From Ignavibacteriota bacterium (lineage in GTDB: Bacteria > Bacteroidota > Ignavibacteria > UBA10030), in assembly GCA_003170475.1 (NCBI GenBank), contig PMZI01000023.1, positions 404,457 to 468,456 of the forward strand: a DNA stretch of 64,000 nt, in the 5' to 3' direction. The notes under the pieces are model-generated. The model saw only the letters and a list, made by a program, of their open reading frames with translations, ran no database searches and had not been told where the DNA came from. Shown piece by piece: positions 14,592 to 54,905 of the stretch (its first letter is position 1; the number at the start of each line of letters is the position of its first letter). The position numbers were made by a program, and so were the translations under genes.

Positions 14592-14599
14592 TGCCAAGT

Positions 14600-26940: not shown

Positions 26941-27096
26941 AGAAATAACTGGTGTGACGAGCACACCCGATCTGGATTCTGCGGCGCCCTCTCCCGGGTG
27001 AGCACATCACGGGATGGGGAGTCCAGGGGGCTTCTCCGCGACGCATCTTTTATCACTGACTTCGACATGTTGTTCAACGAGAAATGGTCTTTCACA

Positions 27097-38178: not shown

Positions 38179-38241
38179 TTGACAAAGAGCCTTCTTTTGC
38201 CAAAGTTACGTTGCACCGTAAGCGATAAAGTAACCGATTCC
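38179..38241 (+). promoter_or_regulatory. Promoter and LacI-type operator of TonB receptor 1
   Basis: TTGACA at 38179-38184 and CAAAGT at 38201-38206 (spacer 16) are followed after 24 bases by GTAACCGATTCC (38230-38241), a good match to the LacI/GalR consensus GTAAnCGnTTnC. It is preceded by AGCGATAAA. The same arrangement recurs at 43646 and 50199. The start codon is 124 bases downstream. Confidence 0.72.
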
Positions 38242-38365
38242 GCGAGGGCGTTGTTCCGAGTTGTGCTCTCTGACCCAATCCTTCAAGACGAAGATCATCC
38301 AAGAGGCCCTAACGAAAACGGGTGGCAACTGTGCCGCCGCCACATCACTCTGAACTGGAGTTTCT

Positions 38366-41300
38366 ATGAAATCTTTTCTCTCACTCGCGATTCTCTGCGT
38401 CCTGACTCTCGCGATTTCCGCGAGCGCCTTCGGCCAAGGCACGTTGACCGGAGTTGTGACCGATTCTCTCACTCATGAAAAACTTGTTGGTGTCAACGTT
38501 GTTTTGCTTGGTACGGGTATCGGTAACGCAACGAACATCGAAGGTGAATACAAGATCACGAGCATTCCGTTGAAAATGTACGAAGTACGCGTCTCGTGTA
38601 TCGGATATGAAGTGAAGACGAGAAGGGTGGATTTCTCGAAGACCACAGATCAGCGATTGAACTTCCAATTGAATCAAACCGTCATTCAGGGCCAGGAAGT
38701 TGTCATCACCGGTCAGATGCGGGGTCAGGTAGCTGCGGTCAATCAGCAGGTCTCTTCCAAGACCATTGTCAATGTTGTTTCGGAGGAGCGGATTAAAGAG
38801 CTCCCCGACGCCAATGCGGCAGAGGCAATAGGTCGACTTCCAGGCGTTGCGTTGCAGCGTTCCGGCGGTGAGGCAAACAAGATCGTTCTTCGTGGAATGA
38901 GCAGTGAATTCGGAAGTGTTTCTGTCGATGGCGTTAGGATCCCGCCGACCGATGCCGATTCCAGAGGTGTGGATCTTAGCATGGTCTCTCAAGGATCATT
39001 GGCCGGCATCGAGTTGTTCAAGGCACTCACGTCGGACAAAGATGCAGATGCAATAGCCGGTACTGTCAATCTCGTCACAAAGAATGCACCCTCCGAGCGA
39101 ACAATCCAGGTGGATACCAAAGGCGCATATAATAAACTGAACAAGACCGCAAAACAGTATGATCTTGCCGTGAAGTACGGCGAACGTTTTTTTGACAATC
39201 TGCTTGGGGTCCAGATATCGGGCAACCTTGAACAGAGAGACCGAAGCAGTGAGAATGTTGGAATCGATTATGATTTGAACTACGATTCAAAGTTCACCGA
39301 TTACATTATTACGGATCTCACACTGCAATATGTCGATGAAGTGAGAAAAAGAGGCGGGGGAAGCATACTCCTCGATATCAACACGCCGGATAACGGCACG
39401 ATTAAGTTCAGCAATGTGTACAGTAGTACGAGCAGGAACTACATTACCTATAGCAGAAACTATCCGCAAACTGCAGTGTATGGACCTGTGTACTCGGACA
39501 GGGATCAGGAACAGAACATCAACACCTTTAATAGTTCACTCCATGGGAAGAATTACATATTTGGTCTGACGGCCGATTGGGGCCTGTCCTTTGCTCAATC
39601 GCGATCGCAGTACCCGTACGACTATTATATAGACTTCTTTGAGCCATCCAGCAACCTCGTCTCGGGTATGAAAGCTATTCCGCAATCGAATCTCAAAGGA
39701 CCGCCGGAATCGTACATCGACTATGCATACAATAATTTCAGTGCGGCATTCCTCGATTGGTCTTATTACCGCGCTCAGAACAACAGCGACAAAGAGAAGA
39801 CTGCGTATCTTGATCTCACGAAGAACTACACGTTCGGGAGTATGTTCTTTGGTGAATTGAAAGTGGGGGGGAAGTACCGACAGAAAGACAGAAACAAAGA
39901 CCAAAGCCAGTTGACTTCGAATCATGAAATTTTTGGTTTTGATTCCGATCAACGATTACCCGATGGAACTATTGGCCCCAAAAATTTCGCCGGAAGTCAA
40001 TTCCCACTACCATCAGCACCCGGCGCATACCCATCCGGAAAGATACTTCTTACGTATTTTCTTGATCCTAGCCCGCCGGAGAGGAGTCTCTACGACAAGT
40101 ACCGGCTCTATCCAATGATCACCAATGATGCAATTCGCTCATGGTGGGACATCAACCAGAGCGGTACGAGCGGATCAGTTTCAGAATATGTCGTCGATGG
40201 TCAGGCTGCGGCTGGTTCCTATGGCGTCGTAGAGCGGGTTTCGGCCGGGTATCTCATGAATACGCTGAACATCGGACAGGACGTCACCTTCATAGCCGGT
40301 GTTCGTGTTGAAAGTGAGAACAACGACTACACGTCAAGATTTTCACCGATACCGCTCTCTGGTTATCCTGCCGTAGGAGGTGTTTTGAAGGACACGTCCG
40401 CAAAGTATTCCGAGGTCGAATGGCTCCCGAACGTCCAACTGGCACTTAAACCTTTTGATTTTATGAATGTGCGTTTGGCTGCCTATCAAGCGCTCGCCAG
40501 GCCCGATTTCAATTACAGGTTGACGGAGGTTGTCGCAAGAAACTCCGCTACGGCGCTTCCGCGTGGAGTTCCGGCAGAATATGGAACGGCTGTCTATTAC
40601 GGAAATCCAAATCTGACTGCAGGAAAGGCGTGGAATTTTGAAGTCAACGCTTCATTCTTCAGTAACACCATTGGCCTGTTCAGCCTTTCGGCGTACTACA
40701 AGAACATTGATAACATGTATCATCTTGCCAACTTCATCCTGGTCGAAGGACCTCTGACGGCCAATGGACAGAAATATCTCGACGACAACAGCATCAATTG
40801 GAAGAATCCTTTTAATTCCAATAGCACGTCCTATTATATTTCCTATCCGTATAACTCCTCGAAGCCGACAAAGATTTGGGGATTTGAAATTGAGCACCAG
40901 GCCAACCTCGGGTTCCTACCGGGCCTGCTCAAGAATATCGTTCTGTCGTACAATGTGTCCATCGTCCGATCTGAAACCTATATCAAGTCCTATGCGATGA
41001 CCGACTCGATTTGGGTTGTCACGCATTCCCGATTCGGCGACCAAACGAATCTCTACTTAACACCAGAGTACTTCGAACTCAAACAAAAAATGGAGGGGCA
41101 ACCAGAACTATACGGCAACGTAGCGCTTGGGTATGACATTGGTGGTTTTTCAGCGCGACTCTCTCTCTTTTTCCAGAGTGAGTATACCTCGGCTTACTCC
41201 GCTGACGGGAAAAATGACATCGTAACCAACAAACTGACAAGATTGGATTTAGCGCTCAAACAACAGATCACCAGCAACTTGGCCATCATGGTCAATGTGA

Positions 41301-41422
41301 ATAACCTGACAAACGCTGATGAGAGCACTGCATATAAGAGCAGAGTCGCAGGATGGAAGCTTCAGAATTCAAGTACAAACTACGGTATGACAGCTGATGC
41401 AGCAGTACGTCTCACGTTCTAA
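38366..41422 (+). CDS. TonB-dependent outer-membrane receptor, copy 1
   Basis: 1018 residues: signal peptide (about 1-23), carboxypeptidase-regulatory-like domain (about 24-110, GVVTDSLTHEKLVGVNVVL), plug domain (about 125-250, with ELPDANAAEAIGRLPGV and IVLRGM), and a large beta-barrel ending in the C-terminal aromatic VRLTF. It should import oligosaccharides through the outer membrane using TonB energy. The size and regulatory domain recall SusC, but no SusD partner is adjacent; the downstream gene is a secreted beta-helix protein. Together with the pectinases around it, pectin fragments are the likely ligand. GGAG precedes the ATG. Confidence 0.9.
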   Translation: MKSFLSLAILCVLTLAISASAFGQGTLTGVVTDSLTHEKLVGVNVVLLGTGIGNATNIEGEYKITSIPLKMYEVRVSCIGYEVKTRRVDFSKTTDQRLNFQLNQTVIQGQEVVITGQMRGQVAAVNQQVSSKTIVNVVSEERIKELPDANAAEAIGRLPGVALQRSGGEANKIVLRGMSSEFGSVSVDGVRIPPTDADSRGVDLSMVSQGSLAGIELFKALTSDKDADAIAGTVNLVTKNAPSERTIQVDTKGAYNKLNKTAKQYDLAVKYGERFFDNLLGVQISGNLEQRDRSSENVGIDYDLNYDSKFTDYIITDLTLQYVDEVRKRGGGSILLDINTPDNGTIKFSNVYSSTSRNYITYSRNYPQTAVYGPVYSDRDQEQNINTFNSSLHGKNYIFGLTADWGLSFAQSRSQYPYDYYIDFFEPSSNLVSGMKAIPQSNLKGPPESYIDYAYNNFSAAFLDWSYYRAQNNSDKEKTAYLDLTKNYTFGSMFFGELKVGGKYRQKDRNKDQSQLTSNHEIFGFDSDQRLPDGTIGPKNFAGSQFPLPSAPGAYPSGKILLTYFLDPSPPERSLYDKYRLYPMITNDAIRSWWDINQSGTSGSVSEYVVDGQAAAGSYGVVERVSAGYLMNTLNIGQDVTFIAGVRVESENNDYTSRFSPIPLSGYPAVGGVLKDTSAKYSEVEWLPNVQLALKPFDFMNVRLAAYQALARPDFNYRLTEVVARNSATALPRGVPAEYGTAVYYGNPNLTAGKAWNFEVNASFFSNTIGLFSLSAYYKNIDNMYHLANFILVEGPLTANGQKYLDDNSINWKNPFNSNSTSYYISYPYNSSKPTKIWGFEIEHQANLGFLPGLLKNIVLSYNVSIVRSETYIKSYAMTDSIWVVTHSRFGDQTNLYLTPEYFELKQKMEGQPELYGNVALGYDIGGFSARLSLFFQSEYTSAYSADGKNDIVTNKLTRLDLALKQQITSNLAIMVNVNNLTNADESTAYKSRVAGWKLQNSSTNYGMTADAAVRLTF

Positions 41423-41459
41423 GAGAATCATTCATTCATTTTTTCGGGAGGGCTTCGCA

Positions 41460-43076
41460 ATGAAACACCTATGGTACTGTGTTGTTATTCTAGTATTGTG
41501 GGCGGCTTCCGTTTTCGGTCAGGATTTGACTGTTCCGACGCTCAAAGCTTCGGGCAAATACCTGAACGAGTTCATCGCCGCCGATTCGGCAGTAGCCAAG
41601 ACAGGAACTCGAACGTATATCCTGCAACGTGACAGTATTTATTATGTGAACGCGGTCATCAGAAACATCGGCTGGACGTTGCGAATCAAAGCCGGAACCA
41701 AAGGATACTACAAACCCACCATTTTCCTCAGCACGCCGACCGGGTCAGCGCAAAATCCGGAAGAAATGTTTAACGTCAACGGGGACATCTACCTGCAAAA
41801 CATCCTCGTAGGTGGGTATAATGAACTCACGCCGGCCTTTATCAGCGCCATAAACTCCGCACTCATCTGGACGGCTGTCGAGAACTGCACCATCGCCGTT
41901 GACAGCTGCATCTTCACGAATGTCGGTCAGGCAGCGATACGTACGGTGAGTGCACCTCGAGTCGTCAAAGTCACCAACTGCGTTTTCGCCAACATGGGAT
42001 ATGGCGGAAATTATGATCCGGGAAATGGCAGACCCATTGATTTGAGAAACGGCTCGTGCGATTCATTGGTCGTCGTGAACAACACATTTGTGAACAACAT
42101 CGACCGTGTTATCCGCCACTATGCCAGCACTGCTGCCATAAAGTACTTCATGTTTGACCATAATACGGTTATCAACAACTACGCTTTTCACGGCATGTTT
42201 GCCTTTGGCATCATGGGTGACAAAGGCATCATCACGAACAACTTGTTTGTCAATCCCTTTACCCTGGGAGTCGATACCGATGCCGTGCGTCAGGCGGAGT
42301 TTATTGACAGCGGTGAAAAAGATCGTTTTGGACAGCCAAGGATGACATGGATCAATTCCGTGCCGAACACCACAACACAGTGGACCATAAGAAACAACTA
42401 CTACACTGTCTCAACCGTTGAACAGAACTGGTACACGAGGAACACAGCTGCCGGTGTGACCGGCGAAGGTACACCGCTGACATGGCACATCAACAGCAAG
42501 ATCGCAGATTCCGTCAATGCGTTCAAGAAGGTAAGTGTTACGCTGACGAATTCTCCCGAGATCGGAACCGCCTTTATGGATTGGTACCGATCTCCCACCG
42601 GTGCGAACAAAACAAAGGTGTTCTCATCGTGGAAAATGGCAAATGATATCAATCGGGTAAGTTTTGTCTATCTGACGGATTCACTCAACTGCAAGTACCC
42701 GACGAGCGCGAGTATTTATACCGCAGCTGATGGCGGCAAGCCTGTTGGCGCTCTCACATGGTGGAACATGGCACTGACAGCCGTGGAAAAGGTCGGGAAC
42801 CAAGGCGTGCCCGAAACGTTCACGCTCAATCAGAACTACCCGAATCCGTTTAACCCCTCAACGACGCTGCAGTACACGATCTCCAAGAGCAGCCATGTTG
42901 TCCTTGAGGTGTTCAACGTGCTCGGTCAGTCAGTTGCACGGCTCGTCGATGAACCGTTGGCAACCGGAACATACAAGACGACCTTCAATGCATCGAGTTT
43001 GAGCTCCGGCGTATATCTGTACAGATTGACGGCTGGTGACTATGTCCAGACGCTCAAGATGGTTTTGATGAAGTAA
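41460..43076 (+). CDS. Secreted beta-helix T9SS protein, copy 1
   Basis: 538 residues. Signal peptide (about 1-21, ending VFGQ). The middle (about 90-400) has the repeating short-strand pattern with Asn and Val ladders of a right-handed parallel beta-helix (ENCTIAVDSCIFTNVG, KVTNCVFANMGYGG, VVNNTFVNNIDRVI, NNLFVNPF). The C-terminus from about residue 455 is a T9SS sorting domain (NQNYPNPFNPST). It resembles the DUF5123/DUF4957-type proteins of pectin loci, which may be lyases or binding proteins; I see no certain catalytic site. It lies 37 bases behind the receptor gene and is followed by a terminator. Confidence 0.78.
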   Translation: MKHLWYCVVILVLWAASVFGQDLTVPTLKASGKYLNEFIAADSAVAKTGTRTYILQRDSIYYVNAVIRNIGWTLRIKAGTKGYYKPTIFLSTPTGSAQNPEEMFNVNGDIYLQNILVGGYNELTPAFISAINSALIWTAVENCTIAVDSCIFTNVGQAAIRTVSAPRVVKVTNCVFANMGYGGNYDPGNGRPIDLRNGSCDSLVVVNNTFVNNIDRVIRHYASTAAIKYFMFDHNTVINNYAFHGMFAFGIMGDKGIITNNLFVNPFTLGVDTDAVRQAEFIDSGEKDRFGQPRMTWINSVPNTTTQWTIRNNYYTVSTVEQNWYTRNTAAGVTGEGTPLTWHINSKIADSVNAFKKVSVTLTNSPEIGTAFMDWYRSPTGANKTKVFSSWKMANDINRVSFVYLTDSLNCKYPTSASIYTAADGGKPVGALTWWNMALTAVEKVGNQGVPETFTLNQNYPNPFNPSTTLQYTISKSSHVVLEVFNVLGQSVARLVDEPLATGTYKTTFNASSLSSGVYLYRLTAGDYVQTLKMVLMK

Positions 43077-43091
43077 CGTGTGGCCTTTCGA

Positions 43092-43129
43092 GGGGCTGGA
43101 CGAAACCGTCCAGCCCCTTTTTTATTTTT
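43092..43129 (+). terminator. Rho-independent terminator after receptor unit 1
   Basis: An 11-bp perfect stem (GGGGCTGGACG, 43092-43102, with its complement at 43107-43117), a four-base loop, then TTTTTTATTTTT. It is the clearest intrinsic terminator in the window and ends the first receptor/beta-helix unit. Confidence 0.92.
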
Positions 43130-43645
43130 GTCCAGTCTGTCCGTGTCCGAGAGAATATGAAAACAGAAGTCAGAGATGTCGTAAGAAGGGATCCTCGTCA
43201 GAAGTTGTCGGCACAGATTCTCTTCATCATCTCACGTTTGCTTTTGACGCTTTGATTCTTGATCAGGGTGATCCCCAAACCAGGTCGTCCAACCTACCCC
43301 TGCATGCGGGCCGCTGTGCCGATCATGTCCGGCTTCTTCGTGTGTATGTTGGGGATTCCGACGACAGCTCTTGTATTTGGGAGATCGTCGAAGATGTTTT
43401 TGAAAGCACGATATTTCACAGCCGCTGCCTTGATCCTCGTTGGTGTCACGCCAGGGATTGTCTCGTACGCGGAAGAGGCACCTCGTGCGTATGTAAACTC
43501 GAAGTCAGTGCTGGCCCGAACCAATAAGTTCTGAGCTCCCAGAGTTAGAGAAGCCACCGTTTTTACAGCGCGGAATGATGGTACCGGCATTTGCATATAT
43601 GGGAAGACGGGCAGTTTTTTCCATTCTTTTTCGACTCGAAACCCC
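43130..43645. other. Intergenic region with an orphan reading frame of doubtful status
   Basis: About 515 bases between a terminator and the next promoter. A 91-codon plus-strand frame (43259-43534) has a hydrophobic segment and a frame on the opposite strand is also open, but neither has a good ribosome-binding site or a family I recognise. It could be the remnant of a gene left by the tandem duplication, or simply non-coding. Confidence 0.35.
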
Positions 43646-43709
43646 TTGACAAAAGAGCTTTGTTTGATTAAAGTTGTAGCACGCCGTGAGCGGTAAAGTA
43701 AACGATTAA
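43646..43709 (+). promoter_or_regulatory. Promoter and LacI-type operator of TonB receptor 2
   Basis: TTGACA at 43646-43651, a 17-base spacer, TAAAGT at 43669-43674, then after exactly 24 bases GTAAACGATTAA (43698-43709), preceded by AGCGGTAAA. The spacer (AAAGAGCTTTGTTTGAT) also resembles those of the two sister promoters. The start codon is 178 bases downstream. Confidence 0.75.
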
Positions 43710-43887
43710 GCTGATTATGGCGTTGGCCTGAGTCGTTCTGGTGCCGTTCGTCTTCCTTGCCGTAGAAACCTTGATGGAAATTTTGCGAAGGAATTTTGCT
43801 CAAGACGAGATTCCTCTGAAGAAACACATCCGCTGTGATCGCGCCATGTCCATGATTGAACAAAATCTATTTTGAAGAGGGATCTCC

Positions 43888-46887
43888 ATGAAAGCACTCA
43901 CCTCATCATCACTTCTCATCCTGATCGTTCTTCTCGTCCCCGCAATGACATTTGGACAAGCGACATTGTCTGGTGTTGTCTCCGATTCTCTGACACATGA
44001 GAAGCTTATTGGTGTCAACGTCGTGTTGGTGGGAACCGGAATGGGCAATGCAACGAACATTGAGGGTGCTTACAGTATTTCTGGAATCCCACTGAAAGTC
44101 TATGGGGTGAGAGTATCCTGCATCGGCTACGAGCCAAAGGTGATCCAGATTGATTTCTCCAGAAACACAACACGGCGGTTGGACGTCCAGTTGAATTCAA
44201 CAGTCATTCAGGGTCAGGAAGTCGTTGTGACTGCACAAATGCGCGGTCAGGTCGCAGCGATGAATCAGCAGGTTGCGTCGAACACCATCATCAATGTTGT
44301 CTCAGAGCAGAAAATCAAAGAATTGCCGGACGCCAATGCCGCGGAGGCGATCGGCCGTCTTCCCGGAGTGTCTCTGCTGCGATCCGGCGGTGAAGCAAAC
44401 AAAGTTATTCTTCGTGGATTGAGTGACAAGTACACCACCGTAACCATCGACGGCGTGAAAATCGCTGCGACGGACGCAGATTCGAGAGGCGTCGACCTGA
44501 GCACCATTTCGCAGGGTTCCCTTTCCGGCATCGAGTTGTCGAAGGCGTTGACTCCCGACAAAGATGCGGACGCCATCGCCGGCACCGTCAATCTCATTAC
44601 CAAAAAGGCGCCTTCAAAGCGTATGCTACAGGCGGACATCAAGGGAGATTATAACAAGCTGATGAACTCAGCAAACCAATATGATTTAAGCCTGCGTTAT
44701 GGAGAAAGGTTTTTTGATAACATCCTTGGTGTACAGCTGAGCGGAAATCTTGAAAACCGGATTCGAAGCAATGAGCAATCGACCATCAACTACCAGGACC
44801 GGTATGATCTCTTTCCGGCGAACTACTTCATCAGCAATTTCAAACTGCGCTTTGTCGATGAAACGAGGAAGCGCGATGGTGTGGTTCTTCTTTTGGATGT
44901 TAATACTCCCGATAGCGGCTCTGTTCGATTGAGCGGCAATTACAACGGAACGCAGCGAAACAGTTCCGCCTTCATGAGGAACTACCCTACCAACAACGCC
45001 GGAAGCACGCCGGTCTACTATGAAACTGAAGTGTCGGACCAGAAAATCACTGCGTTTAACACCTCTGTGCGAGGGGAGAATTATCTCGGCGGCCTGGCAT
45101 TCACGTGGGGCGGGGCCTATGCAAATTCCATCACCGATCTGCCGTTCGATTACTACCTTGATTATTTTGAGGCGATCGGAAAACGGGACGCATCCGGTCA
45201 TGCCACCTCCGGCATGGATCTTCCCGGGAATCTCTTCATTCAAACAAATCCAGAAGTCATCATCCCTTATGCCGTGAACAACTTCGCGGTCGCAGCAATT
45301 GACTCAGGGATCTTCAGCACGGAACACAATAGTCAGACCGAGCGGACGGCCTATCTTGACGGGAAGGGAAAATATGGACTAGGAGAGCTGATTTCAGGCG
45401 AGTTCAAGATGGGTGGAAAATACAAGTACACCACGAGACAAAAGTCGGCAAGCAGGCTCTTTGCACCGTACTACCTGGCTGCCTGGCAACCGAAGGACCT
45501 GTCGGGAACACGCTTCGCGTCCTTCTACGCGAGATACGTTGCAAATAACCAGGTGCGCAGCCCTTCGCTGACGGATTTTCTCGACTCGTCTCCGGCGCAG
45601 AGGAACTTGTTTGATTTGTATACACTCAATCCCATGATGAACAAAGATGCTGTACGGGATTGGTACAATCTGAATAAGAACGGAACGGCGGCGAAACCCG
45701 ATTACTTTACGGACAATACGGCGGATTTGGATTACTACGACATCACAGAGCGTCTGGGAGCCGGATATGCAATGACGACGACGAATATCGGGCGCGACGT
45801 GACATTCATCGCCGGAATCCGCGTCGAGAAAGAATCGGATGACTACCTCTCGAGGTTCGTTCCCGGGACAGGAGCGCTTGGGGGCTTTCCAACACCGACA
45901 GGCCAAGTAAAGGACACCACCACCTCGTATGCCGAAACGATCTGGCTGCCGAACTTCCATTTAACGCTGAGGCCTTTTGAGTTTCTTAATTTGCGGTTTG
46001 CTGCCTATAGAGCTCTCGCCCGGCCAGACTTCAGTGCGAGGTTAGTCAAGCTGTACGGACAGTCGGTAGGCTCATCCAACCAGCTGATCGTCGGAAATCC
46101 GAATCTGAAATCATCGAAAGCATGGAACTATGAGGTGAACACCTCGGTGTTCAGCAATACCATCGGACTCATTTCACTCTCGGCATTCTACAAAAACATC
46201 ACCGACGACCAGCAGCTTCTCAACGCTGCAGGGTTGGTCGGTCCGCGATTTCTGGACAGCCTGGGTATCCACTGGAACACGGCTTTGATAAAAGGGGGGT
46301 ATCAGTTGACAGTGCCGTACAATTCTGCACTTCCCACGAAGATCTGGGGATTTGAATTTGAACATCAAGCAAACCTGAGCTTCCTGCCGGGGTATCTGCA
46401 GTTTCTTGTCTTGTCGTACAACTTCTCGATTGTTCGATCTCAAACACACCTGGTCGGCACAGTGATCGACACGACCTATTTTGTCACCCACTCGGAATTT
46501 GGAGATATCGTAACTGCAAGTTATACAAACCGCATTGTTGATCGATCTCAGAAACTGGAGGGGCAGCCCGAGTTCTTCGGAAACGTCGCTCTGGGTGTCG
46601 ACATCGGTGATTTTTCTGCGCGTATGTCAGTCTTCTATCAGGGCCAGTTTAACCGTTCGTTCTCAGGCGGAGGATTGACCGACGGAATTACCGGGCGCTA
46701 TACCAGATGCGATCTGACAATCAAACAGAGATTCACAGATCACGTCGCGCTGCTTCTGAGTATCAGCAATCTCTTCAACGTCGAGGAAGACTCGTACACG
46801 ATCAACAGGGTTTATAATTGGACCCGCCTGAACACAAGTCAACGATATGGAATGACCGGAGATTTTGGAGTGAGGCTTGATTGGTAG
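43888..46887 (+). CDS. TonB-dependent outer-membrane receptor, copy 2
   Basis: 999 residues, a close paralogue of the receptor at 38366: same signal, same GVVSDSLTHEKLIGVNVVL regulatory-like domain, same plug (ELPDANAAEAIGRLPGV, ILRGLSDKYTTVTIDGV) and a barrel ending GVRLDW. The barrel loops differ more than the plug, which fits a different but related oligosaccharide ligand. No SusD-like gene follows. AGAGGG lies upstream of the ATG. It has its own copy of the conserved promoter. Confidence 0.9.
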   Translation: MKALTSSSLLILIVLLVPAMTFGQATLSGVVSDSLTHEKLIGVNVVLVGTGMGNATNIEGAYSISGIPLKVYGVRVSCIGYEPKVIQIDFSRNTTRRLDVQLNSTVIQGQEVVVTAQMRGQVAAMNQQVASNTIINVVSEQKIKELPDANAAEAIGRLPGVSLLRSGGEANKVILRGLSDKYTTVTIDGVKIAATDADSRGVDLSTISQGSLSGIELSKALTPDKDADAIAGTVNLITKKAPSKRMLQADIKGDYNKLMNSANQYDLSLRYGERFFDNILGVQLSGNLENRIRSNEQSTINYQDRYDLFPANYFISNFKLRFVDETRKRDGVVLLLDVNTPDSGSVRLSGNYNGTQRNSSAFMRNYPTNNAGSTPVYYETEVSDQKITAFNTSVRGENYLGGLAFTWGGAYANSITDLPFDYYLDYFEAIGKRDASGHATSGMDLPGNLFIQTNPEVIIPYAVNNFAVAAIDSGIFSTEHNSQTERTAYLDGKGKYGLGELISGEFKMGGKYKYTTRQKSASRLFAPYYLAAWQPKDLSGTRFASFYARYVANNQVRSPSLTDFLDSSPAQRNLFDLYTLNPMMNKDAVRDWYNLNKNGTAAKPDYFTDNTADLDYYDITERLGAGYAMTTTNIGRDVTFIAGIRVEKESDDYLSRFVPGTGALGGFPTPTGQVKDTTTSYAETIWLPNFHLTLRPFEFLNLRFAAYRALARPDFSARLVKLYGQSVGSSNQLIVGNPNLKSSKAWNYEVNTSVFSNTIGLISLSAFYKNITDDQQLLNAAGLVGPRFLDSLGIHWNTALIKGGYQLTVPYNSALPTKIWGFEFEHQANLSFLPGYLQFLVLSYNFSIVRSQTHLVGTVIDTTYFVTHSEFGDIVTASYTNRIVDRSQKLEGQPEFFGNVALGVDIGDFSARMSVFYQGQFNRSFSGGGLTDGITGRYTRCDLTIKQRFTDHVALLLSISNLFNVEEDSYTINRVYNWTRLNTSQRYGMTGDFGVRLDW

Positions 46888-47004
46888 TGAGCTTGATCCC
46901 GTTCCAGCGTGCAGCGCTTGCCGGGTATGAACGAAGAATCGCACACAGAGAACAGCATTTCTAATTACAGATCTACCACCACAAACAACCGAGGAGATCA
47001 TTTC

Positions 47005-48705
47005 ATGAAGAACATGCGAACCATGTATTGCATCGTGCTGCTGTTGTTCTTGCTGCCGGTGCTCCTGTTCGGACAGGAACTTCGTCTCGTTCCTTATTCC
47101 GGTCAGGGGAGCCAGTATCTGAATCAACAGATCGCAGCAGATACCGTGGCGAACGGCAAACTCCCCACCCGTGTGTATGTTTTGACGCGGGGAGCGCTCT
47201 ATCTATCGAATGCTGTCTTTACCAATACGGGGGGCTGGGCGTTGAAGCTGAAAGCAAACGACAGCACCACGACAAAAAAGCCGGTTATTATGCTGTATCC
47301 ATCGGGCACAGGCTCCACGCCCTGGAACCCTCCCGGCAACCTCTTTCAACTCGGTGGCAGTTTGTCGATGAAGAATATTGAAGTGACGGGGTACTATGAG
47401 CTCGTCGACACGAATCGTTGGAACATGCAGGGAGCCCTGATTAACATCCCGACAACAACTTCAGGTGTCAGCATCACCATTGACAGCTGTATCCTCTCGA
47501 ACTGCAATGGCAACCATATTCGAACTGATGGTGTCGCCTCGACGATCAAGGTAACAAACACCGTGTTTGCAAATCTGGGCTACCTCGGAAGATCAAATTT
47601 TGGCGCTGGCAAGGCCATCGATCTCAGAAATGTCACTTGCGATACATTGCTCATGGTAAACAATACGTTTGTCAACTGGCTGGACCGCATCATCCGTCAC
47701 TATCCCGCCACGGGAGCTACGAGCACAGGCGCACTTGGCTATTTCCAGTTTGATCACAATACGCTCGTCAATGGCACGTCGTACCACGGGCTGCTTTCTC
47801 TTGGCAGCGTAGGTAGCAAGGTCATTATCACGAACAATCTGTTCTTTGATCCATTCATTCTGGGAAATGACTCGGATGCGACACGTCAGGTGGAATACAT
47901 TCCGAGTGGCGAGCTCGATGCGTATGGCGGAGCGCGAATGGCCTGGATTTTCTCCTACCCCAACACTACCACCGCGTGGTCTATCTCCAATAACTATTAT
48001 TGCATCTCCGACTCGGGACAGGCGTTCTACAACCAGTTTAAATCTGCTGGTGTCACAGGCGAAGGATCGCCGTTGACGTGGCATATAAACGGTAAACTCG
48101 GAGCCGATTCAGTCAACGCGTTCAAGAAGGTGACGGTTGCACTGAGCAAAGTTCCCGCCCCGATGACACAGCTTGCGCGATGGTATCGAGCCCCCAACGG
48201 TGGGAACAAGCTGAAGAACACTCCGGGCGCATGGACGTACGGTAATGCAACCGATCCCAACGATTATGACCGAAAGAAGTATGACTGGTTAAGGGACTCG
48301 CTCAACTGCGCGTACCCGACGACATCAGCGCTCTACACCAGCGCCGTGAAGGGATTCCCTGTTGGCGACCTGAACTGGTTCCCGACCTCAAAGAGTCAGT
48401 GGCTCCTGACTGACGTAGAGCCTGTCAACAAGACAGTACCGACAGCATTCACACTGCAACAGAATTATCCGAATCCGTTCAATCCCACCACGACGTTTGA
48501 ATACTCGATTACGAAGAACAGTCACGTCGTTCTCGAAGTCTTCAACGTTCTTGGACAATCGGTTGCACGGCTGGTCGATGGGCAACTCAATGCAGGAACG
48601 TATCGTATTTCGTTCGACGCGTCCCAGCTAAGCTCTGGTGTCTATCTGTACCGGCTGAAGGCGGACAACTTGGTTCAAACCAAGAAAATGGTATTGATGA
48701 AGTAG
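47005..48705 (+). CDS. Secreted beta-helix T9SS protein, copy 2
   Basis: 566 residues, a paralogue of the protein at 41460. Signal peptide (about 1-23, ending LFGQ), a parallel beta-helix middle (TIDSCILSNCNGNHIR, KVTNTVFANLGYLG, MVNNTFVNWLDRII, ITNNLFFDPF), a shared GVTGEGSPLTWHIN segment, and a T9SS domain from about residue 484 ([12 protein letters not shown]). The same genetic order as the first unit shows that receptor and beta-helix gene were duplicated together. GAGGAG precedes the ATG; the frame extends upstream to 46909 without a signal peptide. Confidence 0.78.
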   Translation: MKNMRTMYCIVLLLFLLPVLLFGQELRLVPYSGQGSQYLNQQIAADTVANGKLPTRVYVLTRGALYLSNAVFTNTGGWALKLKANDSTTTKKPVIMLYPSGTGSTPWNPPGNLFQLGGSLSMKNIEVTGYYELVDTNRWNMQGALINIPTTTSGVSITIDSCILSNCNGNHIRTDGVASTIKVTNTVFANLGYLGRSNFGAGKAIDLRNVTCDTLLMVNNTFVNWLDRIIRHYPATGATSTGALGYFQFDHNTLVNGTSYHGLLSLGSVGSKVIITNNLFFDPFILGNDSDATRQVEYIPSGELDAYGGARMAWIFSYPNTTTAWSISNNYYCISDSGQAFYNQFKSAGVTGEGSPLTWHINGKLGADSVNAFKKVTVALSKVPAPMTQLARWYRAPNGGNKLKNTPGAWTYGNATDPNDYDRKKYDWLRDSLNCAYPTTSALYTSAVKGFPVGDLNWFPTSKSQWLLTDVEPVNKTVPTAFTLQQNYPNPFNPTTTFEYSITKNSHVVLEVFNVLGQSVARLVDGQLNAGTYRISFDASQLSSGVYLYRLKADNLVQTKKMVLMK

Positions 48706-48729
48706 TTGGTGGACTTTCTCTGTTGTCTG

Positions 48730-48763
48730 CACCGGGGCTGGAATATCAGTTTCAGCCCCGGTG
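48730..48763 (+). terminator. Strong hairpin after receptor unit 2
   Basis: CACCGGGGCTG (48730-48740) pairs perfectly with CAGCCCCGGTG (48753-48763). It resembles the stem of the terminator at 43092 (GGGGCTG core), but no T-run follows, so termination may be weak. Confidence 0.6.
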
Positions 48764-48847
48764 GTGGACAACGGTGTCCCTTCCTCGATTTCATCTTAGG
48801 GTGTAGTTCAAAGAAGTTGATTCACATCAAAGAGAGTGGAGACTGCT

Positions 48848-50098
48848 GTGATACTTGAGCAATACTCGATCGGCATCGGCGATAGGTTCGGCCACCAGGG
48901 GGCAGCACAACTGTGCGCTTTGCAACAGGCAGAACGTCAGGGTGTAACGATCGTTCCCGTGTGGAACAAATCGTTTCGTGAACATTCCATTGTGGGCACC
49001 TCGCCGACCGATACACGATTAGCGGCGGACAATGCTGTAAAGGAGCGCGGCTGGAAGAACTCATACTACGTGGATGCAGACCACATTGGCTTAAAGAATG
49101 TTGATTGTTTCATTGACTCGAGCAACTTCTTCACACTGGATGTCGCAGACTACATTGGCAAGGCTGCCGGTGAGAAAGAGATCGATGCATTTGTTGGGTC
49201 AATGTCGAAATACTTGTCGGCTTTCCCAATGCCAGGAGTTCGAACAACAACAAGAGTCACGGAAGAAGACCTGCTTGCTATCGGCCGGAAGTACTTGTAT
49301 GCGATCCAAGAAGCCGGAAGGATCTACCGGCACATCGCGGCACAAAAAGGAGTGGATCATTTTGTCACAGAAGTTTCGACCGATGAGGCAAATGAACCAC
49401 AATCCCCGGCGCAACTGTTCTTCATTCTGGCGGCGCTTGCGCACGAAGGAGTGAAGGTTCAGACGATCGCTCCGAAGTTTACGGGAAGGTTTTTGAAAGG
49501 AATTGACTACGTCGGCTCCGTTGAGACATTCAGCGCTGAGTTCGAGGAAGATTTGCTTGTCATCGCTCACGCGGTGAAGACATTTGATTTGCCGAAGAAT
49601 TTGAAACTCAGCGTACATTCGGGCAGCGACAAATTTTCGCTGTATCCGGTCATCCATCGCGCGATCAAGAAGCATAACGCGGGGCTGCATTTGAAAACTG
49701 CCGGGACAACCTGGCTGGAGGAGCTCATCGGTCTCGCCATGGCCGGAGGCACAGGGCTCGATACCGCCAAGGAAGTCTACGTCAAATCCTATGGTCGGAT
49801 TGATGAGTTGTGCAAACCGTACGAAACAGTTATTGATATCGACAGGGCGAAGTTACCCGATCCGCAGACTGTGATGGCATGGACCAGCGACGAGTATGCA
49901 AACGCATTGAGGCACAATCAGAAAGATCCACGCTACAATCTACATTTCAGGCAACTGCTTCATGTCGGATACAAAGTTGCTGCCGAAATGGGAGACAAGT
50001 ACCTCCAGATGCTCAAAGACTCGCGGGAAATCATCGGGAAGAATGTGACAGAGAATTTGTTCGATCGTCACATCCGGCCCATTTTTCTCGGCACCTGA
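48848..50098 (+). CDS. uxaE: Tagaturonate/fructuronate epimerase (UxaE)
   Basis: About 416 residues of the tagaturonate epimerase family first shown in Thermotoga maritima. Conserved-looking blocks are YSIGIGDRFGHQG, VWNKSFREH, FVTEVSTDEANEPQSP, APKFTGRF and LSVHSGSDKFSLYP (metal-site His and Asp-rich segments). It links galacturonate (UxaC product tagaturonate) to fructuronate and so to the UxuB-like SDR. The start is GTG 48848, placed six bases after GGAG; a GTG at 48836 is also possible. It is monocistronic by position, far from the uxaC block. Confidence 0.85.
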   Translation: MILEQYSIGIGDRFGHQGAAQLCALQQAERQGVTIVPVWNKSFREHSIVGTSPTDTRLAADNAVKERGWKNSYYVDADHIGLKNVDCFIDSSNFFTLDVADYIGKAAGEKEIDAFVGSMSKYLSAFPMPGVRTTTRVTEEDLLAIGRKYLYAIQEAGRIYRHIAAQKGVDHFVTEVSTDEANEPQSPAQLFFILAALAHEGVKVQTIAPKFTGRFLKGIDYVGSVETFSAEFEEDLLVIAHAVKTFDLPKNLKLSVHSGSDKFSLYPVIHRAIKKHNAGLHLKTAGTTWLEELIGLAMAGGTGLDTAKEVYVKSYGRIDELCKPYETVIDIDRAKLPDPQTVMAWTSDEYANALRHNQKDPRYNLHFRQLLHVGYKVAAEMGDKYLQMLKDSREIIGKNVTENLFDRHIRPIFLGT

Positions 50099-50198
50099 CA
50101 GCGTTGACTCCATCCTTCCGCCATTTTGCCTCGCCAGAACCGAATTCCATGAGCGTTCGCAAAACTGGCAAAATCATGCAGAAAAACCTCAATTCAGC

Positions 50199-50262
50199 TT
50201 GACAAATAGTCTTTGTTTTGGTAAAGTTCATTTGAATTGAGAGCGGTAAAGTAATCGTTAAA
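50199..50262 (+). promoter_or_regulatory. Promoter and LacI-type operator of the esterase operon
   Basis: TTGACA at 50199-50204, spacer 17, TAAAGT at 50222-50227, and after 24 bases GTAATCGTTAAA (50251-50262), preceded by AGCGGTAAA at 50242-50250. This is the third copy of the promoter/operator pattern, here in front of an unrelated gene 58 bases downstream. The operon it drives contains the LacI gene, suggesting feedback. Confidence 0.74.
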
Positions 50263-50320
50263 GTAAGCATCAAAACGAACCTCTTCCAAAGATCTTCCGC
50301 TCTTCGCCTGTCTCGACCAT

Positions 50321-51325
50321 ATGTATACTCCAAGCAAATCCATTCGCACGCTGTTCTTTACTTCCATCAGCCTCCTGGCTGTACTGTTTTCCCAACTTTC
50401 GGGTCAGCAGAAAGAAATTTCCCGCGATACGTCGTTCACTCTCGACAACACAGCCCCAAAAGTCTACAAACAATATCCACACGCCAGACTTGTCGTGGCA
50501 ATTCTTCCGGACGGTATCGCTGCAGAGGAGAACATTGTCTATGCCCGCTACAAGGAGAGAGAGCTGCATCTTGATCTCTTCTCCCCGCGTGAGAAAGGCG
50601 AAGCATTCCACCCCGGGGTCATCCTGATTCACGGAGGCGGCTGGCGCTCCGGTCATCGTCAAATGGAATGGCCGATGGCTCAGTATCTGGCTGCACGGGG
50701 ATATGTGACGGCGACAGTAGAGTATCGTCTCTCGATGGAGGCTCGATATCCCGCAGGAGTCTACGATCTCAAAGCAGCGATTCGATGGATGCGTGCGAAC
50801 GCTGCAAGACATCACATTGACCCGAACAAGATCGCGGTGTACGGCTGTTCGGCCGGAGGTGAACTCGCGGCATTTCTTGGCACCACGGGCGACGTAAAAA
50901 AATTCGAGGGGAGCCCTGAAGATACAACGATCTCAACCAGAGTGCAGGCAGTTGTCGATGTTGACGGCGTGCTCGACTTTACGACTCCCGCAGAAAGTGC
51001 GAAGGACGGCGATCCGACAAAACCATCAGCAGGAAAATCATGGTTTGGTGCATCCTATGCGGAGAATCCGGAAATCTGGAGAGAAGCCTCGCCCATCAAT
51101 TATGTCGACGCAGGGGCGGCACCCATCCTGTTTGTCAACAGCTCGCTGGAACGATTCCACGCGGGCAGAGATGAAATGATTGGACAGTTGAATGAGCTCC
51201 GGATCTATTCCGAAGTGCATACGATTCCGGATACTCCGCATCCATTTTGGCTGTTTCATCCGTGGTTTGAAGAAGCCTCGGGATATATCGTGACATTTCT
51301 CGACAAGACACTCAAAGGCAAATAA
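50321..51325 (+). CDS. Secreted alpha/beta-hydrolase, probable carbohydrate acetylesterase
   Basis: 334 residues with an N-terminal signal peptide (about 1-30). The oxyanion loop HGGGW (His104) and nucleophile YGCSAGG (Ser177) mark the alpha/beta-hydrolase fold; an Asp in VDGVLDF and a His in TPHPFW are candidates for the rest of the triad. This BD-FAE/pectin acetylesterase-like group removes acetyl groups from plant polysaccharides. It heads an operon with a rhamnogalacturonan acetylesterase, a T9SS protein, a GH105 enzyme and the LacI regulator. No clear Shine-Dalgarno precedes the ATG. Confidence 0.78.
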   Translation: MYTPSKSIRTLFFTSISLLAVLFSQLSGQQKEISRDTSFTLDNTAPKVYKQYPHARLVVAILPDGIAAEENIVYARYKERELHLDLFSPREKGEAFHPGVILIHGGGWRSGHRQMEWPMAQYLAARGYVTATVEYRLSMEARYPAGVYDLKAAIRWMRANAARHHIDPNKIAVYGCSAGGELAAFLGTTGDVKKFEGSPEDTTISTRVQAVVDVDGVLDFTTPAESAKDGDPTKPSAGKSWFGASYAENPEIWREASPINYVDAGAAPILFVNSSLERFHAGRDEMIGQLNELRIYSEVHTIPDTPHPFWLFHPWFEEASGYIVTFLDKTLKGK

Positions 51326-51357: not shown

Positions 51358-52332
51358 ATGAAGAGCCTTCTCACGTTCTTCCTCCTGATACTCTTCAGCG
51401 CCGCGTCGCTGGTCGCTGAATCTGGAATCGCCGTCGACGCAAAGGCCAAGATGCTGGTTGCCACAGCCGGGATCGACTATCAATGGTATCGCGATGGAAA
51501 AGTCGTCGCTGGAGAAATCGGGCAGACGTTGGGTGTAAGCGAATCAGGAATCTACGCCGTTGCATACACCGATGTTTGCGGTAGACGCAAACTTCAGAAC
51601 GCGCGCGTTGAGGTGTCAGGTACGAAGATTGTCAAAGTGTACTTGATTGGTGATTCAACGATGGCAGACTACACCCTTGATGCCGACTACAAGGCGAAGC
51701 GCTTTCCCATCACAGGGTGGGGACAGGTGTTTCAGGCATTCATGAGTTCGGATAGCTTGTTCAAAGTTCGCAACATCCTGAAGGCGGATAGTGTGGTCGT
51801 GGTCGATAAGGCACGAGGAGGACGGAGCACTCGAACGTTTTTTGAGGAAGGAAGATGGTCAGAGGTCTGCAAGTCGCTCGAGGCGAACGACCTGGTCCTG
51901 ATCCAGTTTGGGCACAACGATGCTGCGAAAGACAAACCGGAACGCTATGTCAACGTCGAGGGATACAAGGAGTATCTGCGTCTGTTTGTCAATCAGGCCC
52001 GCGAAAAGGGAGCGGTTCCTATTTTGTTGACTCCTGTGAATCGGAACTATCCATGGGCCGACGGAAAACTCTCGAATGTGCACGGAGAATACCCTGATGC
52101 CGTCAAACAAGTCGCGAAAGAATTGAATGTGCAGATCATCGACCTGACTCAGCTCTCCATCGACTTCTTCACGTTGAAGGGTCAGGAATATGTAAGCAGT
52201 CATTATTTTATGAATTTTGCCGCAGGGCTCTATGAAGGATATCCCAATGGGGGCAAGGACAATACGCATTTTCAGCCTGAAGGAGCGGTAGAAGTTGCCC
52301 GGCTCGTATTTCAGGCGATGGCCGGCCTGTGA
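51358..52332 (+). CDS. Rhamnogalacturonan acetylesterase (SGNH, CE12-like), copy 1
   Basis: 324 residues: signal peptide (about 1-20), a short beta-rich N-terminal segment (about 25-90, YQWYRDGKVV as in Ig-like domains), then an SGNH esterase with IGDSTMADY (Ser100), GWGQ, FGHNDAAKDKPERY and the C-terminal DNTHF (Asp301, His304). It deacetylates rhamnogalacturonan I. It follows the esterase gene after 32 bases. Confidence 0.86.
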   Translation: MKSLLTFFLLILFSAASLVAESGIAVDAKAKMLVATAGIDYQWYRDGKVVAGEIGQTLGVSESGIYAVAYTDVCGRRKLQNARVEVSGTKIVKVYLIGDSTMADYTLDADYKAKRFPITGWGQVFQAFMSSDSLFKVRNILKADSVVVVDKARGGRSTRTFFEEGRWSEVCKSLEANDLVLIQFGHNDAAKDKPERYVNVEGYKEYLRLFVNQAREKGAVPILLTPVNRNYPWADGKLSNVHGEYPDAVKQVAKELNVQIIDLTQLSIDFFTLKGQEYVSSHYFMNFAAGLYEGYPNGGKDNTHFQPEGAVEVARLVFQAMAGL

Positions 52333-52611
52333 AAAGGTATGAACCTATGTGGAGACAGACACACCTCCATCATCGCAGAATCCATCAAATGATCGATGCT
52401 CGGCGGTTTTGCTCGTTGTTGACGCTGACCACGCTCTTGAGTGTCAGGGAATATGCTGAGGTCGGCTATGATTTTTGACTGTGCATGGACGGCAGAAGGG
52501 GCGATCTTGATTCGAAGATAAAATGATCATTCACAAAGAACGACTGGTATCCACATTCAGGTGTGACACAGAATCGTCCGAAACGGTACAATAATTAAAG
52601 AGAGGTGCATC

Positions 52612-53523
52612 ATGAAACAACGTATACCATTGCTGCTACTTGCATTCGTCATGATGGCGATGCCGGCGGCACTTGCTCAGACACCCGATAGTGTCATTTG
52701 GTACTTGAGCAGCACGACACTGAAGATTGCCGCGAACACTGCCAACGTCATAGGAGATTCAAACTCGGTTGGACCGGCGCTTGGCCTGCAAATCGCCAGC
52801 TACAATGCGAACGGCCAGCGATGCAACTTGGCTGGTCCAGGCGGCAACAATTGGCCGGCAAGCGAAACCGATACGGCAGCGGGACGTTACATCCAATTCG
52901 ATGCTTCGCCTATCAGCGGGCGCAGCTTCACTGTAAAGAGAATATTCTTCAACTATGGCGGAGCTAGCAGTACAAATGCTATGAAAGGAAAGGCGTTCTA
53001 TTCGACAAATAACTGGTCTTCGATGACGCTGCTCAATACAGATTCCGCGTTCGTTTACCCGAACTCCACCGTATCGCCGTATTCAAAAGCCGTTAATGTA
53101 ACAGTTCCAAACAAGGGGAGATTCTCGCTGAGAATATATCCTTTCTGGGTATCGGCAACGGCAGGCACCAGCTCGAAATACTCAGTTCTCGATTCGGTAA
53201 CGATTTCGGGAGCAACAGCAGTGGCCAGTAGCGTGGAGAAGACGGGAATCGAAGTACCGAGTGAGTTCATGCTTCATCAGAACTATCCCAATCCGTTCAA
53301 TCCATCGACGAATATCGAATATCGAATATCGAAATCCGGAACTGTCACCCTGAAAGTGTTTGATGTGCTGGGTCGCGAAGTTGCGACTCTGGTGAACGTA
53401 GAACTCCAACCAGGAATATATCAAGCAACATTCGACGGTGCACATCTTGCCTCGGGAGTCTACCTGTATCAGTTGAGGGCAGGGGATTTCGTCCAGACGC
53501 AACGAATGGTGCTCGCGAAATAG
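52612..53523 (+). CDS. Small secreted T9SS protein of unknown function (beta-sandwich-like)
   Basis: 303 residues: signal peptide (about 1-22), a 190-residue beta-rich domain with aromatic and Ser/Thr-rich strands (FDASPISGRSFTVKRIFFNY, GRFSLRIYPFWVSA), and a T9SS sorting domain from about residue 221 (HQNYPNPFNPST). The SLRIYPFW region reminds me of accessory domains on Bacteroidota pectinases, so it may bind pectin; no catalytic motif was seen. It lies in the esterase operon, 279 bases after the acetylesterase. The sorting-domain coding sequence contains a short 7-bp tandem repeat (53309-53329). Confidence 0.7.
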   Translation: MKQRIPLLLLAFVMMAMPAALAQTPDSVIWYLSSTTLKIAANTANVIGDSNSVGPALGLQIASYNANGQRCNLAGPGGNNWPASETDTAAGRYIQFDASPISGRSFTVKRIFFNYGGASSTNAMKGKAFYSTNNWSSMTLLNTDSAFVYPNSTVSPYSKAVNVTVPNKGRFSLRIYPFWVSATAGTSSKYSVLDSVTISGATAVASSVEKTGIEVPSEFMLHQNYPNPFNPSTNIEYRISKSGTVTLKVFDVLGREVATLVNVELQPGIYQATFDGAHLASGVYLYQLRAGDFVQTQRMVLAK

Positions 53524-53579: not shown

Positions 53580-53657
53580 TATCCCACACGTCATTGTGCA
53601 GCGGTTGGAAATCTTTGACACCTTCAAGAATATCTTGTGAGCCTTAAAGGGGACACC

Positions 53658-54905
53658 ATGAAAGCACCATCTTTCGGTCTCTTCATATCTCTTCTGTTTC
53701 TCCTGCCTCTGCCGACCATGGGCAATGGAAGCAATTCGGCCGGGAACGGAGGTGATTCGTTGTCCATCTCCGATCAATGGCCATGGTCAAAACGGATCGC
53801 CGAGTCCTTTGTCCTGCGCCATCCCGGCGCGGTGACGTATGACTCGCTGTCTCCGAGCGAGAAGTGGAATTATGAGCAGGGACTGATGCTGGAGGCTCTT
53901 CATCAAATGTGGTTGTTCACGAAGGATCAACGATACTTCGATTTCATCAGGCGGAATATCGATCAGTATGTCGATGAATCCGGGAACATCAAGACCTATA
54001 AGCATGACGAGTTCAATCTTGACAACGTGGCCGTCGGCAGAGCGCTGCTCACACTCTCTGAGACAACGGAGAACAAAAAATATAAAAGCGCTGCCGACAC
54101 CCTCAGGTTTCAGCTCAAGAACCAACCGAGGACTCACGAAGGCGGGTTCTGGCACAAACAGATCTATCCATATCAGATGTGGCTGGACGGCCTGTTCATG
54201 GCGGAGCCGTTCTATGCCTGGTACGCGAAAAGCTTCAAAGAACCTGACGCGTTCGAGGATATTGTAAACCAATTCGTGTTCATTGCCAAGCACACGCGCG
54301 ACCCCAAGACCGGATTGCTGTATCATGGATGGGATGAAAGCAAACAGCAGCGATGGGCGAATCCGGAGACAGGCTGTTCTCCCAATTTCTGGGGAAGGGC
54401 AGTGGGTTGGTATGAGATAGCGATCGTCGATGTTCTGGATTTTCTGCCCAAGAACCATCCGCGCAGACATGAACTCATTTCGATTCTCAGGGATGTATCG
54501 GCTGCAACCCTGAAATTCCGTGATGGAAAAACGAACCTTTGGTATCAGGTGCTCGATCAGGGGAAGCGGGAAGGAAATTATCTGGAGGCTTCTGCATCCT
54601 GCATGTTGACCTATGCGTTTGCCAAGGGTGCTCAGAAAGGATATCTGGACAAGAATTACCTGACAGCGGCACGAGAATCGTTCGAGGGAATCAACAAATA
54701 CCTGATTTCCGTCGATGCGAAGGGGTTCATCGATCTCCTTCACACCTGCCAGGGTGCCGGTCTGGGAGGCAATCCGTACAGAGATGGGAGTTATGAGTAC
54801 TACATCGGTGAGCGCCAGCGGACAAACGATATGAAAGGGTATGGTCCGCTTCTCCTTGCCGCCATCGAGCTGGAAAAAGCTGGCGTCAGAGTCAAGAGTC
54901 ACTGA
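53658..54905 (+). CDS. Unsaturated rhamnogalacturonyl hydrolase (GH105, YteR-like)
   Basis: 415 residues: signal peptide-like start (about 1-22), then an (alpha/alpha)6 barrel with the GH105 signature YPYQMWLDGLFM, where Asp177 corresponds to the catalytic Asp of Bacillus YteR. Other family blocks are GLLYHGWDES, FWGRAVGWY and EASASCMLTYA. It removes unsaturated galacturonate from rhamnogalacturonan oligomers by hydrating the double bond, giving the substrate for KdgF/KduI. The ATG at 53658 has AAAGGGG upstream. The protein is probably periplasmic. Confidence 0.9.
   Translation: MKAPSFGLFISLLFLLPLPTMGNGSNSAGNGGDSLSISDQWPWSKRIAESFVLRHPGAVTYDSLSPSEKWNYEQGLMLEALHQMWLFTKDQRYFDFIRRNIDQYVDESGNIKTYKHDEFNLDNVAVGRALLTLSETTENKKYKSAADTLRFQLKNQPRTHEGGFWHKQIYPYQMWLDGLFMAEPFYAWYAKSFKEPDAFEDIVNQFVFIAKHTRDPKTGLLYHGWDESKQQRWANPETGCSPNFWGRAVGWYEIAIVDVLDFLPKNHPRRHELISILRDVSAATLKFRDGKTNLWYQVLDQGKREGNYLEASASCMLTYAFAKGAQKGYLDKNYLTAARESFEGINKYLISVDAKGFIDLLHTCQGAGLGGNPYRDGSYEYYIGERQRTNDMKGYGPLLLAAIELEKAGVRVKSH

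Follow-up and report, generated by a model that had tools for sequence, protein, structure and literature searches.

A probable LacI-repressed pectin regulon with a double CG-centred operator in an Ignavibacteriota bacterium

In the lac system of Escherichia coli a LacI-family repressor acts at an operator (O1) that covers the region where transcription starts at a sigma-70-type promoter, with the operator centre at about +11. A comparable arrangement is described here for Ignavibacteriota bacterium (assembly GCA_003170475.1, contig PMZI01000023.1), in a stretch of 64,000 nucleotides (positions 404,457 to 468,456 of the forward strand) that is referred to as the window. The window harbours three promoter-operator cassettes, in which a TTGACA promoter is followed at constant distance by a motif with two CG dinucleotides (CG1 and CG2), and a gene at 54974 encoding a LacI-family regulator, P0001. 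Like the lac operator centre, CG1 of the three window sites is located at predicted +11. Unlike lac, the system would be a three-unit regulon with autoregulation, its operator consists of two overlapping CG-centred sites, and P0001 ends after the sugar-binding domain.

One study describes the LacI-family operator as a consensus CG pair centring an inverted repeat of 16-22 bp, and reports a 13-bp peak for overlapping sites, with such pairs before 110 operons (PMC4052901). For GntR and its orthologues in gammaproteobacteria the overlap was conserved for more than half of the operons (PMC4052901). GntR of E. coli (gntKU), with its overlapping adjacent sites, would resemble the present system. Unlike the GntR-type overlaps of ~13 bp, the spacing in the pectin operator is 12 bp, both CGs are found in nearly all sites and a third CG occurs in 11 of 43. 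In Bacteroides, UxaR, UxuR and KdgR are LacI-family regulators of uronate catabolism, i.e. of galacturonate, glucuronate and 2-keto-3-deoxygluconate (KDG), according to PMC3878776 and PMC4052901. These are likened to P0001 by family and proposed function only, and differ in that the pectin regulon proposed here reaches outer-membrane receptors and secreted proteins. Overlapping LacI-family sites and LacI-family uronate regulators are already known; the 12-bp overlap and the distance classes reported below are less ordinary. No study of this pectin LacI regulon in Ignavibacteria was found in the open-licence literature, judged by titles and abstract openings. The findings make it very likely that the three promoters constitute a local, autoregulated pectin regulon, repressed by P0001 bound to a double operator over their start regions.

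Three cassettes of one geometry

The cassettes are listed below. Promoters were read directly from the sequence; operator scores are those of a profile model (R1) described in the next section.

38179..38206, + strand: promoter 1, TTGACA (38179-38184), 16-base spacer, CAAAGT (38201-38206)
38217..38243, + strand: operator 1, CG1 38223-38224, CG2 38235-38236, predicted start ~38213; 27.0 bits, E 1.5e-5
43646..43674, + strand: promoter 2, TTGACA (43646-43651), 17-base spacer, TAAAGT (43669-43674)
43685..43711, + strand: operator 2, CG1 43691-43692, CG2 43703-43704, predicted start ~43681; 31.5 bits, E 5.4e-7
50199..50227, + strand: promoter 3, TTGACA (50199-50204), 17-base spacer, TAAAGT (50222-50227)
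50238..50264, + strand: operator 3, CG1 50244-50245, CG2 50256-50257, predicted start ~50234; 27.9 bits, E 7.3e-6

Downstream of the hexamers the three sites read GTAACCGATT at 38230, GTAAACGATT at 43698 and GTAATCGTTA at 50251. A preliminary description of this DNA had assigned the pattern GTAAnCGnTT to all three sites; it holds for the first two and not for the third, while the AGCGRTAAA that was placed ahead of GTAA is present at all three. The distance between the -10 hexamer and GTAAnCG, given there as exactly 24 bases, is indeed constant, its value being exactly 23 bases. With spacers of 16, 17 and 17 bases, the operator is thus fixed relative to the -10 and not to the -35 hexamer.

In the window the complete cassette is present three times, whereas 100 shuffles yielded no copy of it. 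The pattern TTGACA-N16/17-YAAAGT has three matches in the entire genome (4,075,875 bases; 4.08 Mb), all in the window, and its reversed control has three as well (one forward, two reverse), so that the count of the promoter pattern alone is no higher than chance. The operator follows all three genome matches, which was judged not to be due to chance. The operator 15-mer GCGRTAAAGTAANCG likewise has three exact genome matches, all in the window, compared to none for the exact reversed control.

Several candidates were tried and set aside. GTAAnCGnTT alone gave 2 exact window matches vs 1.2 expected by chance, which is not significant, and GCGRTAAAGTAANCG with up to two mismatches gave 35 matches vs 73 in the reversed control, mostly noise; both were replaced by the profile model. 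A second -10, suggested by a further TAAAGT 25 bases past every -10 and by an additional copy in site 3, was dropped because the downstream TAAAGT is operator core in relatives while the -10 varies. An 18-base inverted repeat, CTGGTAAACCGTTACCAG (6635-6652), with arms of 7 that match exactly, starts 46 bases past a TTGACT (6589), ahead of a gene for a large sorting-tail protein. It represents a similar layout with a different operator; it was rejected as a fourth member, being a different sequence with one exact copy in the window.

Recurrence of the operator and its association with LacI orthologues

Profile R1 comprises the operator only (34 columns, 14 sites, without promoter bases). Some of the sites used for training came from loci selected for their lacI gene, and the choice was made by a pattern with both CGs and with TTGAC in front; the fair figures are those that exclude training genomes or sites. 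Genome counts are lower bounds, 150 of 812 candidates having been scored in the own genome and 35 per relative genome. Among the candidates scored in the own genome, R1 found three sites up to E 10, all in this cluster. The genome-wide enrichment of the motif before carbohydrate genes that had been looked for was therefore not found, and with just these three sites the regulator looks local.

Beyond this genome the operator is found ahead of related genes in further genera, families and orders, with R1 matches in at least 102 of 198 genomes at E <= 0.1 and in at least 37 at E <= 1e-3. Exact matches to GCGRTAAAGTAANCG number 13 in 61 genomes, compared to 2 for the reversed control, and 9 of the 13 are preceded by TTGACA. 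Further analysis was based on 72 matches, i.e. the R1 rows of the 198-genome search with E <= 0.0133 plus one at E 0.0328 (G031); two training sites (G003:C233 and G032:C4) and a second match in one region (G097:C136:3229) were omitted. Among the top non-training matches TTGAC was found 30-48 bases before CG1 in 40 of 60, against 55 of 3317 control windows (1.7%) from the same loci, and its fraction dropped with profile score from 17/18 to 3/10. With the 12 training sites included, all of which have TTGAC, the count is 52 of 72. Dropping sites at least 85% identical over 40 bases reduced these 52 to 43 non-redundant sites, and removal of training sites and near copies left 34.

The genes downstream of the 52 TTGAC-bearing sites (12 of them training sites, of which three are in the window) encode 22 window-type receptors, 7 GH28, 4 PL9-type, 2 GH88, 2 UxaE and 2 LarA-like proteins, and one each of LacI, MFS, BD-FAE esterase and SSF symporter; 5 calls are weak and 4 undetermined. 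Many of the 20 matches without TTGAC look like chance matches. Some of these are found ahead of regulon-type genes: UxaC (L113), a receptor (L155), a pectinesterase (L157), GH88 (L172) and LarA-like genes (L176, L177). The autoregulatory layout also recurs, with a site ~0.25 kb ahead of lacI (L119) or ahead of GH88-lacI (L146, L172).

The first two of the three promoters drive paralogous receptors, as previously noted (61-63% identity across 410-449 amino acids (aa)), and the spacers of the cassettes are similar. Both observations would fit recent duplication alone, with promoters copied along with their genes and as yet undiverged. The gene behind the third promoter is unrelated, alignment of the flanks beyond the cassette is poor, and the same element stands before several gene classes in other families and orders. 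Duplication as the only explanation is already contradicted by this cross-genus conservation and is considered highly improbable, and the earlier argument for selection beyond duplication holds.

The proposed regulator is encoded as follows:

54974..56017, + strand: LacI-family regulator P0001, 347 aa, recognition helix SRVTVSKALRGHPDIS, proposed repressor (Pfam LacI, Peripla_BP_3)

P0001 consists of an N-terminal LacI helix-turn-helix (PF00356, E 3.4e-13) and a sugar-binding sensor domain like the periplasmic binding proteins (PF13377, E 3.1e-27), and its relatives of solved structure are CcpA, PurR and LacI. It is probably dimeric, without lac-type looping by tetramers, because the chain ends right after the sugar-binding domain. 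It shares 93% identity with the LacI protein of an Ignavibacteriales metagenome-assembled genome and 57% with that of a Bacteroidetes one. Orthologues were found in 54 of 198 relatives (E <= 1e-90) and in 22 of 296 phylum-wide genomes (E <= 1e-95), all 22 being listed as same class or closer. Among matched genes, a GH88 homologue is present in 19 of 20 fetched clusters, in 15 directly beside lacI. Of 45 scanned LacI loci, the 38 with at least 49% identity all retain S-[RKNE]-VTVSK-[AV]-LRGH as recognition helix; the seven others are more distant paralogues, of which L054-L056 keep RVTVSKAL and four diverge more. Such a near-invariant helix would match one conserved operator. One LacI orthologue, L041 (G027), has a single in-frame TAG, perhaps reflecting a broken copy or an assembly error.

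The operator tracks this orthologue across genomes. An orthologue (E <= 1e-90) is present in 30 of 37 operator-bearing genomes (E <= 1e-3) and in 24 of 161 others (Fisher p 1.7e-14), and without the 11 training genomes in 20 of 27 vs 23 of 160 (p 8e-10); the genomes are related and not independent, so both p values overstate the significance. Of 40 sites in the 30 genomes with operator and LacI, 19 share a contig with lacI, all within 20 kb, and 11 of these 19 are in training genomes. This co-occurrence favours P0001 as the probable regulator, as had been proposed from the window alone. Binding of the cassette by another regulator, such as a GntR-LacI hybrid encoded at 14591-15802 or a LacI paralogue, is improbable. 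A second sugar-type regulator is indeed present in the window, paralogues of ~40% identity retain much of the recognition helix (SRVTVSKALRDHPDIS in L054/L055, TRVTVSKAL in L056), and two genomes, G037 and G012, have the operator without an orthologue of the 54974 protein. Against this stand the tracking of the orthologue by the operator, often in the same cluster and in L119 just before lacI, and the central CG of the motif, which is typical of LacI-family sites (PMC4052901). Furthermore, in the 20 fetched relative clusters, to which this search was confined, the best non-overlapping matches included no homologue of the 14591 protein.

Operator architecture and position at the promoter

The operator consensus AGTTAnCGRTAAAGTAAnCGATWAAGTAA holds two overlapping CG-centred units of putative LacI type, 12 bp apart; GTAAnCGnTT, initially taken as the operator, is too narrow. 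The strongest self-similarity is a 12-base direct shift together with an inverted axis midway between the CGs. The flank of CG1, TTAnCGnTAA, is a 10-bp palindrome, and that of CG2, TAAnCGnTWA, has some outer symmetry. The most conserved bases are those between CG1 and CG2, the would-be shared half-site. Of the 43 non-redundant sites, 40 have CG1 and 42 have CG2 (31/34 and 33/34 without training sites), figures that are partly circular, as both CGs were part of the pattern used for training. A third CG in register at +24 was found in 11 of 43 sites (10/34 non-training), above every offset except CG1 and CG2; it is less circular because its position is at the edge of the model. When the window and 20 clusters were scanned with TTGAC as anchor and one half was allowed to be missing, 11 sites were found (10 of them training sites), nine with both CGs and two with TG for CG2. 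A direct repeat of response-regulator type, prompted by the 12-bp period, was judged less likely given the CG centres and the LacI association.

Alignment of the 43 sites on TTGAC gave CTTGACA, followed after 17 bases by TAnnTT. Within the second hexamer of the 34 non-training sites, place 2 is A in all but one (33) and place 6 is T throughout (34). By this consensus the predicted regulon promoters are of classical sigma-70 layout. The Bacteroides-type promoter has TTG ... TAnnTTTG, at -7. TAnnTTTG was not the consensus of these 43 TTGAC-bearing sites.

Measured between the initial T of TTGAC and the C of CG1, the distance falls in three classes: 31 bases (8/43), 35-37 bases (22/43) and 42-47 bases (13/43), with 8, 18 and 8 of the 34 non-training sites. 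With starts predicted as 7 bases past the -10, these classes place CG1 at ~-3, +1 to +4 and +8 to +13, respectively. In the -3 group the -10 hexamer (TAAGTT and similar) overlaps the left half of the operator. The window operators span ~+5 to +31 of the predicted starts.

The location of the window operators wholly past the predicted start is what a true roadblock would show, i.e. a repressor downstream of the start that halts elongating polymerase instead of initiation, as was suggested in the preliminary description. In window and relatives alike, however, the operator would lie within the polymerase footprint at the start region, with CG1 at predicted +11 in the window, from -3 to +13 in relatives, and in 8 of 43 sites with its left half-site over the -10 box. 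Because all predicted positions cover the start region, a block of initiation is likelier and an elongation roadblock unlikely. A 5'-leader RNA element in place of a DNA operator would also fit the window, where the motif is within the predicted untranslated leader at all three sites. The motif overlaps the -10 box in 8 of 43 non-redundant sites and has CG1 at predicted +1 to +4 in 22 more, and would there be partly untranscribed, leaving the RNA element very unlikely.

It may be speculated, tentatively, that the operator is not a pair of ordinary LacI sites but a purpose-built 12-bp tandem array (two or three repeats of CGRTAAAGTAAn), conserved in several families of the class, on which LacI dimers share half-sites. 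Dimers that compete, slide or stack in register could then give graded repression, with one promoter class in which half-site and -10 box occupy the same bases.

Gene content of the window and the proposed regulon

A pectin/uronate gene cluster fills the window. Its gene products include UxaC, KduI, PfkB kinases, a 6PGD-type dehydrogenase and UxaE, as well as GH28, GH43, GH88, an alginate-lyase-type protein, GDSL and BD-FAE esterases, TonB receptors and proteins with type IX sorting tails. The genes and terminator candidate of the three cassette-bearing units are:

38366..41422, + strand: TonB-dependent receptor 1, 1018 aa (Pfam TonB_dep_Rec_b-barrel, Plug, CarbopepD_reg_2)
41397..43076, + strand: secreted partner protein of unit 1 with type IX secretion sorting tail (Pfam Por_Secre_tail)
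43090..43119, + strand: intrinsic-terminator-like hairpin of 13 pairs after unit 1, longest stem of the hairpin scan
43888..46887, + strand: TonB-dependent receptor 2, 999 aa, paralogue of receptor 1 (Pfam)
46909..48705, + strand: secreted partner protein of unit 2 with type IX secretion sorting tail (Pfam)
48836..50098, + strand: UxaE, tagaturonate epimerase (Pfam PF16257, E 1.8e-54)
50321..51325, + strand: BD-FAE type esterase (Pfam PF20434, E 2.4e-49)
51358..52332, + strand: GDSL esterase, pectin acetylesterase PaeY-like (Pfam Lipase_GDSL_2; NF041897 at 65.4 bits, far under the cut-off of 1000)
52612..53523, + strand: secreted protein of unit 3 with type IX sorting tail (Pfam)
53637..54905, + strand: GH88 family enzyme (Pfam PF07470, E 9.1e-111), presumably of the unsaturated uronyl hydrolase type

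Unit 1 comprises receptor 1 and its partner and is followed by the hairpin at 43090, found in a scan that was overall no richer than shuffles (18 sites vs 18.9). Unit 2 comprises receptor 2, its partner and UxaE. Unit 3 would extend from the BD-FAE esterase over the GDSL esterase, the sorting-tail protein and GH88 into lacI, by read-through. The third operon had been regarded as unrelated to the other two; pectin/galacturonate-type genes are present in all three units, which are hence functionally related.

Elsewhere in the window, a protein that joins a DNA-binding domain of GntR type to a sugar-binding domain of LacI type, an AraR-like layout, is encoded at 14591-15802, among uronate genes. 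This hybrid may control the 13-37 kb part, in which the operator profile model found zero sites. A membrane H+-pyrophosphatase gene (26998-29697) is located within the uronate gene cluster, and a protein with a lactate-racemase (LarA) N-terminal domain (30808-32079) also belongs to it. Homologues of the latter, 68-72% identical, follow an operator-like site in four same-class genomes (L149, L164, L176, L177), which suggests a role of the LarA-like protein in pectin breakdown.

In the proposed mechanism the three cassettes would be sigma-70-type promoters (CTTGACA, 17 bp, TAnnTT), each with the double operator placed over its start region. A P0001 dimer bound there would block RNA polymerase at the promoter when a pectin breakdown product is absent. 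Release would be brought about by a product of pectin uptake, possibly galacturonate, an unsaturated galacturonide or a KDG-type intermediate, and would lead to joint expression of both operons for outer-membrane receptors together with UxaE, the esterases and the GH88 enzyme, as well as of the repressor. With the repressor gene in unit 3, P0001 would exert negative autoregulation.

A number of observations weigh against such a regulon. Seven operator-bearing genomes are exceptions to the association with LacI. Two of them (G087 and G071) hold fragments of the orthologue, and G026, G092 and G095, which have none, are 55-79% complete, but G037, with an estimated completeness of 100%, carries the operator ahead of a gene for GH28 and no LacI orthologue (best 27%), and G012 has paralogues of 41% and 36% only. 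Conversely, in 24 LacI-bearing genomes no site reached E <= 1e-3; weaker matches occur in many of them. The choice of training sites introduces some circularity into the co-occurrence with LacI, the count of TTGAC and the conservation of the CGs. Four of the 13 exact GCGRTAAAGTAANCG matches (L083, L084, L085, L091) have no TTGACA in front. Beyond TTAnCGnTAA and TAAnCGnTTA the CG-centred units are imperfect palindromes; their similarity to the own reverse complement is 0.65 and 0.64, and there is no clean palindrome of 16-22 bp. Unit 3, finally, contains a gap of 279 bases (52333-52611), in which a promoter-like match occurs at 52563, so that a second promoter for lacI may exist.

For pectin use in Ignavibacteria and related bacteria, the analysis names a probable regulator together with its probable operator and targets. 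The motif can serve to flag pectin genes of unknown function in these genomes, and the 12-bp overlap combined with varying operator-promoter distance represents a natural series on operator position vs repression.

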